Of a stretch of DNA of 64,000 bases, positions 19,023 through 22,922 are shown one piece after another. The stretch is from Brevibacillus laterosporus DSM 25 (GTDB lineage: Bacteria > Bacillota > Bacilli > Brevibacillales > Brevibacillaceae). The notes beneath the pieces were generated by a model. The model worked only from the letters and a program-made list of their open reading frames with translations. It did no database searches and had not been told where the DNA came from. Both the position numbers and the translations under genes were made by a program. The stretch spans positions 3,036,501-3,100,500 of the forward strand of contig NZ_CP017705.1 of assembly GCF_002706795.1 (NCBI RefSeq). The letters run 5' to 3'. The number at the start of each line of letters is the position of its first letter. Position 1 is the stretch's first letter.

Positions 19023-19059
19023 AAATCATTATGAAGAACAATTTTCTTTATAATGATTT
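19023..19059. promoter_or_regulatory. Large inverted repeat overlapping a TATAAT, candidate operator of the HTH-TPR regulator
   Basis: Two 14-base arms (19023-19036 and 19046-19059) match with one mismatch and a 9-base spacer. The right arm contains TATAAT at 19049-19054. There is no T run, so it is not a terminator. Region 18991-19186 otherwise holds only AT-rich sequence. Confidence 0.5.
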
Positions 19060-19186
19060 ACATTAATATACAAGTAAGTTACTATTATTCAAATATGTGA
19101 AGATATGTATATGATTATTAATATGACAACTGGAGTAATAAATAATTCTATATTGTTAATCCAAATAGGTGAAGGCAAGGGTATAA

Positions 19187-20479
19187 ATGGGAGGAAATCA
19201 AACTTTACATTATACATCTCTGGGGGAACTAATAAAAATGAAACGAGAAGACATGGAAATAAGTTTATCTGAGTTGGGAAGACTATCGGGAGTTCACAAA
19301 AGTGCTTTGGCGAGAATTGAAAATGGTGAAACCAAGCAACCTAAATTACAAACAATCAAGGCTATAGCGGACGTTCTAGAACTTCCTTATAAAGAAATTG
19401 TTGAACATTATATGAAAATAGAACAACGTGCCGAGGTTTTACAGGAACTAATTTTAGAAGCGATTGAAGTTTCTCAGTTTCAATTAATCCCTAATGTGGC
19501 TCAAAAAGTGCTTGCATCTCCCAATGAGGATACATATATATCATTAGAGCGTCTGTATAATTTTGTTGACACTATTGTAAACAACGAAATTAAGCTATTA
19601 CTTTATGGTGAAATAATCACATATGCCAGGCAACATGGAGTACCAAAGTATATAGCTAAAGGATTATTGCAAAAATATTTGATTGATAGAGAGGATTTTA
19701 AGAGACTTGAAGAGTCATATAAAGATGGAGAAGAAATAGCTTACTATGTTGACTTTTTATCCCTTGACGAACAAATAACTTTTTATTATCGTATGGCACT
19801 TCACGCACATAACATTAAAAAGTATGAAAAGTGTATTAAATTTGGTCAAATGGGGATGGAAAAAGACAAAACAAAAAATGATCTTAAAGAAAGTGTAGCA
19901 TTGGCAATGTGTAATTCTTATGTAGAACTCGAAGACCATGTCAGTCTTCATTTACATTTAGATGAATGTGAAAAAAAGAAATATCATTTCATTATTAGAT
20001 GTATAAACTATTATCGAGCCATAATTCTTTCACAAAGAGGTGATTATGAAAAAGCTATTCCTTTATTGCAGGAATGTTTAGAAGAAGTTATAGGTATTAG
20101 ACGCTTGTATCGATTAAACAGGCTGCTAGAAGCTCTATCTAAATCAAAAAATGTCGATCTAATCAGAAAACTAATACAGTCTGAGGAAAACGATTTTTCA
20201 TTTAATCCAGTTACGCCACACCAATATGCTCAGGCAGGTATGTACTATAAATTTAAAGGAACTTTTCTTATTGAAAATGGGCAATTCGATTTAGGTATAG
20301 AACAACTTCTTCAAAGTATATCCTATTATGCTATGATAGGTTCGTATAAGGATATTATTGAATGTTCCAAGGAGATTTTTTATTATCATGCATTCTTCAA
20401 AAGACAAACCAAATTTGAAATTGCAGGAAAATTGAATGAATTGTATAATGAAGTTACCATGGGAGAAAAGAGGGAATAA
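19187..20479 (+). CDS. HTH-TPR cytoplasmic regulator, RRNPP type (NprR/PlcR-like architecture)
   Basis: A 430-residue protein. Residues 12-66 are an XRE-type helix-turn-helix (LGELIKMKREDMEISLSELG, SGVHKSALARIENGE). Residues about 80-425 are all-helical with TPR-like pairs (for example YYRAIILSQRGDYEKAIPLL at about 280-300, and ENGQFDLGIEQLLQSISYY at about 362-380). That domain order and length fit peptide-responsive RRNPP regulators such as NprR (about 420 residues). There is no membrane segment. A 45-residue exported-peptide gene begins immediately after its stop codon and shares its terminator, as papR follows plcR and nprX follows nprR. Likely a quorum-sensing receptor. It is AT-rich compared with its neighbours, a sign of accessory DNA. 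Weak start context; GAAGGCAAGGG lies upstream. Confidence 0.82.
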   Translation: MGGNQTLHYTSLGELIKMKREDMEISLSELGRLSGVHKSALARIENGETKQPKLQTIKAIADVLELPYKEIVEHYMKIEQRAEVLQELILEAIEVSQFQLIPNVAQKVLASPNEDTYISLERLYNFVDTIVNNEIKLLLYGEIITYARQHGVPKYIAKGLLQKYLIDREDFKRLEESYKDGEEIAYYVDFLSLDEQITFYYRMALHAHNIKKYEKCIKFGQMGMEKDKTKNDLKESVALAMCNSYVELEDHVSLHLHLDECEKKKYHFIIRCINYYRAIILSQRGDYEKAIPLLQECLEEVIGIRRLYRLNRLLEALSKSKNVDLIRKLIQSEENDFSFNPVTPHQYAQAGMYYKFKGTFLIENGQFDLGIEQLLQSISYYAMIGSYKDIIECSKEIFYYHAFFKRQTKFEIAGKLNELYNEVTMGEKRE

Positions 20480-20481
20480 TG

Positions 20482-20619
20482 ATGAAGAAAATTGTAATTT
20501 CTACTATTATCTTTTCAACCTTCTTCTCACTTACATTTATTGTTTATGATAAATTTATGGAAGCTTGCTCAGAAAAATATTCCGCTTCCAAAGTTTATAA
20601 CGAAGACCTAGGGCATTAA
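20482..20619 (+). CDS. Small exported pro-peptide, candidate signalling peptide of the RRNPP cassette
   Basis: A 45-residue gene. Two tandem ATGs lie at 20479 (overlapping the last base of the regulator TAA) and 20482; the second has AGAGGG at seven bases and is preferred. The N-terminus is MKK followed by a hydrophobic core at residues 4-21, a signal peptide of Sec type. The remaining tail of 24 residues is polar (YDKFMEACSEKYSAS then KVYNEDLGH). In Phr, PapR and NprX precursors the active peptide is five to eight residues from the C-terminal part, so the end of this tail is the likely signal. A terminator follows within 22 bases. No homologue is recognised by sequence; the call rests on position, size and signal peptide. 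Confidence 0.75.
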   Translation: MKKIVISTIIFSTFFSLTFIVYDKFMEACSEKYSASKVYNEDLGH

Positions 20620-20638
20620 TCAACTTAAACCTTTTTAG

Positions 20639-20669
20639 GAAAAAACGCTATGGATTTAGCGTTTTTTTG
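20639..20669 (+). terminator. Terminator of the regulator-peptide operon
   Basis: AAAAAACGCTA pairs with TAGCGTTTTTT around a short loop, with the T run as the right arm. Confidence 0.9.
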
Positions 20670-20827: not shown

Positions 20828-20913
20828 CGACATTAAATGTAATATATTGTCGGTAATTTTATAGTGTTGCAAATGTAAAAATTTTGAAAATTTCTAGCGA
20901 CGGCTGATATACT
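20828..20913 (+). promoter_or_regulatory. Promoter of the secreted-protein gene with upstream inverted repeat
   Basis: TTGAAA at 20884-20889 and TATACT at 20908-20913 are separated by 18 bases. An inverted repeat CGACATTA-N9-TATTGTCG (20828-20852, one mismatch) lies 31 bases upstream of the -35 box and could be an activator site. Confidence 0.55.
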
Positions 20914-20919
20914 TATAGT

Positions 20920-21178
20920 AAGCATTTGGAAGGGGGAATTGTTATAAGAAATTTTATTCTTAAATAGGGACGTTCTTCAAGTAATAGGTAAGCCTGAACG
21001 TCCCATCCAACATGAGTAATAGGCTAATATTACTCATACTAATTTTACCATTTTTGAAGTAGTGGCGAAAGTACAATGTCACAGGAAAAAATACTTAATG
21101 CAATGGTTTTAAAAGGTTTAGCTTAACTATTAATGGTTATGGGTGAAAGGGATAAAATAAATTTTTGGGAGGATTAAC
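20920..21178 (+). promoter_or_regulatory. Long 5' leader with two strong hairpins
   Basis: Between the promoter and the ATG at 21179 are about 260 bases. Hairpin 1 is GGGACGTTC (20967-20975) paired with GAACGTCCC (20996-21004). Hairpin 2 is ATGAGTAAT (21012-21020) paired with ATTACTCAT (21029-21037). A GGAAGGGGGAATT at about 20928-20940 looks like a ribosome site but no good ORF follows. A 16-codon ORF starts at 21012 inside hairpin 2 without a ribosome site. No known riboswitch class recognised. Confidence 0.5.
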
Positions 21179-21706
21179 ATGAAAAGGATTATGACAGTCT
21201 TAAGTCTTTCTGCTTTGCTCGTGATCCCTACTATGGGGGGAAATGTTATAGCATCAGAATCGGATGAACTATCTTTAGAAAGAAATGTGACTGAAAATTA
21301 TGAAGTTGACTTCGAAAAATGGCCTACTAGTGATTTATCTAGTGAAATTGAATTGTCGCTAAACGTTCCTACAAATAGTTTTAGTAGTCAAGGGTTTGAC
21401 TTTAAAAGTCTTGCCACAGGAAAAACAAAACTATCATCATCTGACAGTGAAGTGAAATCAACAGGGACAACTAAAGGTAAAACTTTAAGTACAGTTGTTT
21501 CAGCAACAACAGGTTTATTTAAAGATGGTGAAAGCTTAGGTGAAAGTGATAAAGCGATTGCAATAGGTAAGTTGACTGCAACGGCTGAGAAAAGTTATTT
21601 CTCAAATAAGTGGAAAAAGAACAAGTTTGAAGGTGTAACTGTTCATACTGCAACTTATGATGGGGTTTTATACGATGATGCTTCCGCAGATAAATTTCTA
21701 AAATAA
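21179..21706 (+). CDS. Secreted protein of unknown function
   Basis: A 175-residue protein with a signal peptide (MKR, hydrophobic to about residue 20, cleavage near VIASES). The mature part is rich in Ser, Thr, Lys, Asp and Glu with no Cys and no recognised domain. The region after residue 75 (Ser/Thr/Lys-rich, then ATTGLFKDGESLGE) looks beta-rich or disordered, and the C-terminus has aromatic residues (YFSNKWKKNKFEG). GGGAGG precedes the ATG with good spacing. It has its own promoter, a long structured leader and an exceptionally strong terminator that overlaps its stop codon, suggesting high, regulated expression. Position next to the RRNPP cassette makes it a candidate output gene (inference). 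Confidence 0.8.
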   Translation: MKRIMTVLSLSALLVIPTMGGNVIASESDELSLERNVTENYEVDFEKWPTSDLSSEIELSLNVPTNSFSSQGFDFKSLATGKTKLSSSDSEVKSTGTTKGKTLSTVVSATTGLFKDGESLGESDKAIAIGKLTATAEKSYFSNKWKKNKFEGVTVHTATYDGVLYDDASADKFLK

Positions 21707-21747
21707 ATGTTAAAAAGGTATGATTTTATCATACCTTTTTAACATTT
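21705..21747. terminator. Perfect 20-bp palindromic terminator
   Basis: Arms 21705-21724 and 21728-21747 are perfect reverse complements around a TTT loop. The hairpin has A and T runs on both sides, so it could work in both directions. It begins within the stop codon of the secreted-protein gene. Confidence 0.9.
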
Positions 21748-21863
21748 ATTGAAAATGAAGTTATGGTGTATATTCTAAGCGCTAGAAAGTACCACTTGAT
21801 GACGTTTAGAAAAACTTCTGTGTAAGCTAAATAACTTTTTTAAAAGGGAGGTATTCTGTACGA

Positions 21864-22922
21864 ATGAAAATAAAGCATTATTGGATGCTCCTATCGGTAG
21901 TGTTAATGTTAAATTTGATGCTTACAGCTTGCTCAAATGAAGGGTATTTACATGTTAAATATAAACAAGATGATATTTTGGTTATTCAGGGTGAAAAATT
22001 TTCCAAAAGTGAACATACTTTACTACATAATAGCCCTGTTGAATCCTCTTCTTTTACTTCTGCAACGGGGTTTGTTCCAGATGAAAGATGGAAAAGTCAA
22101 ATAAAGGTACAGGATGAAAAATATACGTTTCTTGATATACATTCATCTAATGTAATAACAGGTACATTCATTCTTGATAATAATTCAAAAAAAGATATTA
22201 GATACAAGATACTTGCTTATCAAGGTAACCAAAACATACCAATTAATATTGATGGTTATGACAAAAAAATTGGAATTGAAGTAACGGTAAAGAGCAATAC
22301 CACAGTAAAACTACCTGTATCGATTCCATTTTCAGCAACAGGCGATAAGGAATTAACCATTTTTCCAATAACTATTTCTAACCAATTAGAAAGATATAAC
22401 GGTGGAAATCTTGGCTTAGTGCGATTTTTTGTCTCTAATGGAATGGATACTCAAATAACGAAAGAGACAATTGCTAAGCAAGCGTTTTCTTTACCTGAAA
22501 ATTATGACACACAAAATATTTCTTTACTCCCTACGTTGTCTTGGATGGGGGATAAGTTCGCTGAACCGAAATACATTAATAGGAATAATAAGCTATATAC
22601 TACAAAGAAAGTGAAAGGGTTACAAGTAAAGCCATTACCATATGATACAAAGCTCGATATTATTTGGGCAGATGAATTTGGGAATACTACCCTACTTGCA
22701 AAAGATGTTCCTGTAACTAAAAATCAAGCTACCTCCATTAATATTGAAGATCAGATATTATCTGACATCTATCAAAACGAACAACGTCAATTCTTATTTG
22801 TTTTTGCTAACAGAAATGAAGAAATATTGGCTGATGTGCTTGCCCTTGATCAATTTAAAAAACCATATATGACTACCTTTCAAGGGATTATTGAGATATA
22901 TCCAACCATAGAGAAAAACTAG
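21864..22922 (+). CDS. Lipoprotein of unknown function
   Basis: A 352-residue secreted protein with a lipoprotein signal peptide; the lipobox is LTAC with Cys at about residue 23. The mature part is mixed, with beta-rich patterns (NVITGTFILDNNSKKDIRYKIL broken by turns, KLPVSIPFSATGDKELTIFP) that suggest immunoglobulin-like sandwich domains; no catalytic motif is seen. The start at 21864 has AAAAGGGAGG about 13 bases upstream, longer than usual. It is separated from the secreted protein by a strong terminator and ends at its own, so it is expressed independently. I do not recognise a family. Confidence 0.78.
   Translation: MKIKHYWMLLSVVLMLNLMLTACSNEGYLHVKYKQDDILVIQGEKFSKSEHTLLHNSPVESSSFTSATGFVPDERWKSQIKVQDEKYTFLDIHSSNVITGTFILDNNSKKDIRYKILAYQGNQNIPINIDGYDKKIGIEVTVKSNTTVKLPVSIPFSATGDKELTIFPITISNQLERYNGGNLGLVRFFVSNGMDTQITKETIAKQAFSLPENYDTQNISLLPTLSWMGDKFAEPKYINRNNKLYTTKKVKGLQVKPLPYDTKLDIIWADEFGNTTLLAKDVPVTKNQATSINIEDQILSDIYQNEQRQFLFVFANRNEEILADVLALDQFKKPYMTTFQGIIEIYPTIEKN

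Follow-up and report, generated by a model that had tools for sequence, protein, structure and literature searches.

In the window, that is, the whole 64,000-nucleotide stretch of Brevibacillus laterosporus DSM 25 analyzed here, we found a locus which is probably a peptide-signalling cassette of the RRNPP type (subfamily 08), in which an exported peptide and its receptor would act through a candidate operator at 20967-21004 to control target genes (Table 1). The initial annotation had proposed a receptor of this kind with an exported pro-peptide, and the predicted fold, the gene order, the conserved peptide tail, the co-variation of that tail with the TPR half of the receptor and the presence of 13 oligopeptide-binding proteins in the genome all give it good support. 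Its description of the cassette as self-contained within 19023-20669 has to be given up, as the probable operator and the target genes are located past the terminator shared by both genes.

Table 1. Features of the cassette and its downstream region (window positions).
Feature	Position	Strand	Basis or remark
Receptor, 430 aa, XRE-type HTH (~residues 12-80) and nine TPR-like helix pairs	19187..20479	+	ORF, Pfam, AlphaFold
Pro-peptide gene, 46 codons (45 from second ATG at 20482), tail ..SASKVYNEDLGH	20479..20619	+	ORF, homologue comparison
Intrinsic terminator common to receptor and peptide genes	20639..20668	+	12-pair stem then T7
TTGTCGGTAA, Spo0A-box-like	20847..20856	+	TTTGTCGAA-like sequence probably ahead of same promoter in paralogues
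Promoter-like TTGAAA-N18-TATACT, extended -10 (TG), toward downstream gene	20884..20913	+	TGGTAAAAT at equivalent place in paralogues
Candidate operator GGGACGTTCT-N18-TGAACGTCCC	20967..21004	.	Conserved in orthologue L081
Second inverted repeat ATGAGTAATA-N6-TATTACTCAT	21012..21037	.	Paralogue counterpart TTGAGYAAC-N7-GTTACTCAA
Extended -10-like TGGTAAAAT facing operator	21042..21050	-	Putative counterpart in paralogues
Putative target, secreted 175-aa protein	21179..21706	+	No known family
Putative second target, 352-aa lipoprotein, no family	21864..22922	+	Partner of secreted protein on Priestia megaterium plasmid too

The receptor carries an HTH_3 domain (Pfam, E 2.5e-11); Pfam TPR matches were sub-threshold, and PHROG 32768, of unknown function, covers the protein over its full length (E 2e-151). 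The AlphaFold2 model, obtained with an alignment of 43 homologues (pLDDT 88), displays five helices in the HTH domain followed by 18 helices arranged as nine TPR-like pairs. Pfam and the predicted structure together give the N-terminal HTH and the C-terminal TPR or TPR-like superhelix that characterize RRNPP(A) receptors, as the initial annotation had claimed for a regulator of 430 residues. The likeness to NprR and PlcR put forward there was also borne out: peptide-bound NprR was the top VIA-align match of the model (Z 17.4, 288 residues), entries for Rap and AimR scored only slightly lower, and PlcR and AimR were among the top Foldseek matches. AimR entries aligned with nearly the full length of the model including the HTH (Z 14-16, 349-367 residues) at 10% identity and an rmsd of ~20 A, a large value that is expected from the flexible superhelix. 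Since unrelated TPR proteins also reach such Z values, the fold shows an RRNPP-like architecture and nothing further.

The first ATG of the peptide gene (20479) overlaps the receptor TAA by one base, and no other terminator was found between the two genes; the small gene lies directly after the receptor stop and before a shared terminator, where it had been placed initially. It is preceded by the Shine-Dalgarno sequence GAGGGAA, encodes a KK n-region and a hydrophobic core, and ends at 20619 (MMKKIVISTIIFSTFFSLTFIVYDKFMEACSEKYSASKVYNEDLGH); a clear signal peptidase site was not apparent on reading the sequence. The adjacent small exported pro-peptide gene of RRNPP(A) systems is thus present, its export being judged from sequence alone.

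Homologues of the receptor were detected in Brevibacillus and Paenibacillus genomes, in viral contigs and plasmids, and in the Brevibacillus phages Sundance, SecTim467 and Jenst; about a dozen paralogues are present in the genome of DSM 25 itself (5.4 Mb, one contig), some of them broken (L010, L014-L016). The copies in Sundance and SecTim467 (L105, L106) are accompanied by spo0E-like genes, and SecTim467 carries a second, AloR-like regulator beside the cassette. A rule based on a Shine-Dalgarno sequence, 25-75 codons and a hydrophobic N-terminus just past the receptor stop was satisfied at 66 of 86 receptor loci (some of them duplicates) vs 8 of 187 other ORFs of the same loci, which places the small exported ORF after the receptor beyond chance; several of the misses do carry a DPG-tailed ORF skipped by the rule. 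In the window 2 of 51 ORFs pass, the peptide gene at 20479 being one of the two.

The peptide tails across these loci end in DPGH, DPGY, DPGF, DPGW, DPQG, PDW or APW, that is, DPG[HYFW] or variants. The window tail reads NEDLGH, and both the orthologue L081, whose receptor is 99% identical, and the paralogue L002 have NEDPGH; on this comparison, NEDLGH is the form that the family tail DPGH takes locally. Values of dN/dS between 0.13 and 0.39 in five informative pairs show purifying selection on the peptide frame, among paralogues as well as orthologues, the closest pair (L001 and L081) having six changes and an uninformative ratio. An alternative is that the small ORF encodes a membrane microprotein or a toxin-like peptide with no link to signalling; it is short, with a hydrophobic N-terminus and no clear signal peptidase site, but we consider this very improbable, as the motif shared across genera and phages ends the polar tail and not the hydrophobic core, tail and TPR half of the receptor vary together, and a single recombination block joins the peptide gene to that half (see below).

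Past the peptide gene, part of the family shares an inverted repeat with the consensus GGGRYGTTCC-N18-19-GGAACRYCCC; counterparts of the N19 form occupy the corresponding position in most loci of the B. laterosporus type as well as in the prophage and phage copies. By one fixed rule this candidate operator was found in 19 of 84 downstream segments (near-duplicates included, ~15 being independent) vs none of 493 control segments, and a spo0E-like gene follows in 17 of the 19 loci (Fisher p 9e-7), only the window and orthologue L081 being without it. The pattern RYGTTCC-N18-20-GGAACRY occurs nine times in the DSM 25 genome vs zero for the reversed control pattern, and all seven N19 copies sit at cassettes or cassette remnants; two other matches (L137, L143) lie between convergent genes, look like terminators and were discarded. 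Two orphan operators were observed, one (L110, G000:C1:2705367, which is among the seven) with a peptide gene of tail SYFVDPGH and a truncated spo0E beside a transposase gene, no receptor being seen at the locus, and one (L111, G000:C1:3706113) accompanied by the remnant of a spo0E-like gene and by a gene for a secreted protein. The operator was absent in several paralogues (L005, L006, L009) and in the Paenibacillus homologues, which share no perfect 8-bp repeat.

In the window the outer nine bases of the arms (GGGACGTTC/GAACGTCCC) are perfectly complementary, while the element departs from the consensus in having GTTCT/TGAAC and a spacer one base shorter. Together with DLGH for DPGH, this divergence means that the window copy could be drifting. 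One reading takes it to be decaying, signalling having been broken by the Pro-to-Leu substitution of the tail together with the divergence of the operator, and the receptor being left constitutive or responsive to the L002 peptide: both L081 and L002 keep NEDPGH, L002 has the TPR half and peptide block of the window, and several paralogues in the genome are indeed broken. We find it somewhat unlikely, as the receptor and peptide frames of the window are intact, its operator arms are conserved in L081, and other functional-looking members also depart from DPGH (DPQG, PDW, APW).

The inverted repeat could alternatively form an RNA hairpin, of a leader or antisense RNA, or be the site of another regulator, with the receptor acting elsewhere. 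It lies within a predicted 5' leader, beside the second inverted repeat, and a promoter-like element on the reverse strand faces it. However, the L007 spacer is the reverse complement of the L002 spacer at 18 of 19 bases, so that the element occurs in either orientation with its asymmetric spacer conserved, as suits a site bound in double-stranded DNA better than a structured RNA; its spacing is fixed at close to three helical turns, its occurrence is tied to this receptor family, and neither the leader nor nine paralogous loci gave an Rfam match at a family's cut-off. We therefore regard the hairpin or foreign-site reading as unlikely and retain that of an operator of the receptor. In L003 and its orthologue L085 perfect arms AGGGACAT/ATGTCCCT are kept and the spacer between them has changed.

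Other elements recur across the loci around the operator, namely a Spo0A-box-like sequence, a purine-rich AGGAGGAAGAAAGGAGG, the second inverted repeat and the reverse extended -10; a CCUCC-bearing antisense RNA is possible at this control region. The likeness of TTGTCGGTAA (20847-20856) to a Spo0A box was judged against the general consensus of such boxes. We considered and rejected a leader peptide that would read through the operator (GVP...GTP in frame): its start codon and upstream frame are unconserved, and the palindromic arms of the 39-bp element yield those codons by themselves.

In the window, which lacks spo0E, the operator precedes the genes of the secreted protein and the lipoprotein, whereas in most operator loci it is followed first by a spo0E-like gene and next by one for a secreted protein. 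No family was found for the 175-aa protein in Pfam, NCBIfam or PDB sequences; the secreted protein of L108 is annotated as a matrixin-type protease, and those of others are without family. A C39-like peptidase is encoded downstream in L003, and an EntV-like bacteriocin, below the curated cut-off, downstream in Paenibacillus L056, where the operator was not found. The secreted protein and lipoprotein also occur as a pair on a Priestia megaterium plasmid (L125:4001-5654; 42% and 33% identity), with no receptor-peptide pair annotated nearby, so this cargo travels separately. As a guess, the two could act as toxin and immunity protein.

From these features we infer a course of events in which the 46-codon product would be exported by Sec and cut outside the cell, leaving a short peptide from its C-terminus (about ..YNEDLGH) that would be re-imported by an oligopeptide permease. 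Re-import is possible, since the genome encodes 13 SBP_bac_5 oligopeptide-binding proteins, the Opp-type components that such a system had been expected to need. The peptide would then be bound in the TPR half of the receptor, a dimer of which would bind the inverted repeat at 20967-21004 through its HTH; the bound peptide would alter the hold of the receptor on the operator and thereby control transcription from 20884-20913 into 21179-22922. The same layout in the paralogues would control a Spo0E-like phosphatase and a secreted protein. The operator lies ~45-85 bp downstream of the predicted transcription start of a good promoter, a position that favours repression relieved by the peptide, which we judge slightly the more probable mode. 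AloR13 and AimR, by contrast, are activators that their peptides turn off.

The paralogue L002 (G000:C1:1522398-1523660) shares 87% DNA identity with window positions 19613-20622, in a block that begins near codon 143 of the receptor and ends exactly with the stop codon of the peptide gene. Its HTH most resembles those of other paralogues (up to 82%, vs 54% to the window), its downstream region aligns with those of L004, L007, L010 and L011, a TAG stands in its receptor frame immediately ahead of the HTH, and its peptide tail reads YNEDPGH. By these alignments L002 is a natural chimera, joining the TPR half and peptide of the window lineage to the HTH, operator and spo0E of another. Matrix tests on the 15 operator loci gave a comparable division: distances among peptide tails follow those of the TPR half (rho 0.50, p ~0.0004 allowing for the HTH) and do not follow the HTH, whereas operator distances follow the HTH at a borderline level (rho 0.34, p ~0.04-0.05) and do not follow the TPR half, the 15 loci being related and the permutation leaving that relatedness in. 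We consider the chances evenly balanced that the long-spacer repeat with GTTC arms is a subfamily-08 operator related to that of AimR and that the system evolves as two units which can be exchanged, a signal module (TPR half and peptide) and a response module (HTH, operator and target).

AimR binds a long-spacer operator until the peptide releases it, the phi3T operator arms being ATGTTC-N25-GAACAT (PMC6458997). As a sequence feature, the candidate operator of the window resembles that of AimR-AimP of phi3T and SPbeta: both have inverted arms separated by a long spacer and lie past the peptide gene; the GTTC core is common to both, and the spacer between the GTTC/GAAC hexamers is 20-21 bp in the window family vs N25 in phi3T. 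AimR-AimP is a phage lysis-lysogeny locus with aimX; the window cassette is chromosomal, and no gene resembling aimX was noticed among its neighbouring ORFs, which include a chitinase-like gene. NprR-NprX and PlcR-PapR of the Bacillus cereus group also pair an HTH and TPR receptor with a downstream exported peptide, but identity is ~9%, the tail, operator and targets differ, and PlcR has five TPRs vs nine in the window receptor.

RRNPP_detector cluster 8, or RRNPPA subfamily 08, of the Paenibacillaceae has been described computationally (Bernard 2023, PMC10075063; structural phylogeny 2025, PMC12700828); it is sister to AloR-AloP, and PMC12700828 names its DPG motif. Like the window family, it combines an HTH-9TPR receptor with an adjacent exported pro-peptide and a DPG motif, on chromosomes, plasmids and phages of Paenibacillaceae (in the NCBI sense); the family and L081 (DPGH) have the DPG tail, the window copy itself having DLG. 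A plasmid of B. laterosporus LMG 15441 carries one AloR and one cluster-8 system (PMC10075063). On pBRLA33 we found a window-receptor homologue, with peptide tail DYDPGY, adjoining an AloR-family receptor (tail EHGVGG); the latter shares ~31% identity with a receptor from a plasmid of P. polymyxa ATCC 842 and has no significant sequence alignment to the window receptor family (E 0.21). This combination of one AloR and one family member matches the reported one indirectly, and the window pair was filed under subfamily 08, to which it probably belongs judging from the DPG motif, the taxa and pBRLA33. Hence the new receptor-peptide pair of the initial annotation is new at the level of the window sequence only, its kind being already listed and having about a dozen paralogues in the genome.

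AloR-AloP of Paenibacillus (Voichek 2020, PMC7425212) agrees with the window family in architecture and in the order of its genes, and has many paralogues in each genome and, in several of them, a spo0E-like gene downstream, as in most operator-bearing loci of the window family. The mature AloP13 peptide is SHGRGG and the AloP-like tails of Brevibacillus end in HGVGG or HGMGG, unlike the DPG-type tails. AloR13 activates its spo0E promoter and the peptide shuts the promoter off (PMC7425212); no locus was found with the published AloR13 primer among 399 genomes. Most AloR loci are without the operator, and a shared operator in AloR-proper loci was unsupported (5 of 40, three near-identical, vs 2 of 49 controls). 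In another Brevibacillaceae genome, GGGCGTTCC-N19-GGAACGCCC occurs in several copies; those at L139:2406 and 9653 follow a receptor of the AloR type and mark the beginning of a spo0E-like gene, respectively. Another HTH-TPR receptor family of DSM 25, ~25% identical to AloR (L113, L114 and L115, at ~2.93, 3.00 and 3.88 Mb), is in each case followed by GGGATGTTCC-N21-GGAACACCCC or a close sequence and a secreted-protein gene, the L115 peptide ORF ending in GYGEGW.

The three papers dealing with subfamily 08 and AloR make no mention of an operator for these families, and we found no published account of the candidate operator, of the L002 chimera, or of tails tracking the TPR half with operators tracking the HTH. 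As far as the literature found goes, subfamily 08 is known from computational prediction only; a defined candidate operator and target gene make it a testable reporter system and let the targets of many paralogues and phage copies be predicted from sequence. With the L002 chimera, nature has supplied an experiment on the re-wiring of peptide signals to outputs and, if the two-module reading is true, natural recombination of this kind rewires which signal drives which output. The Spo0E-like and secreted-protein targets suggest that these cassettes may place the timing of sporulation and the production of secreted factors under density control.
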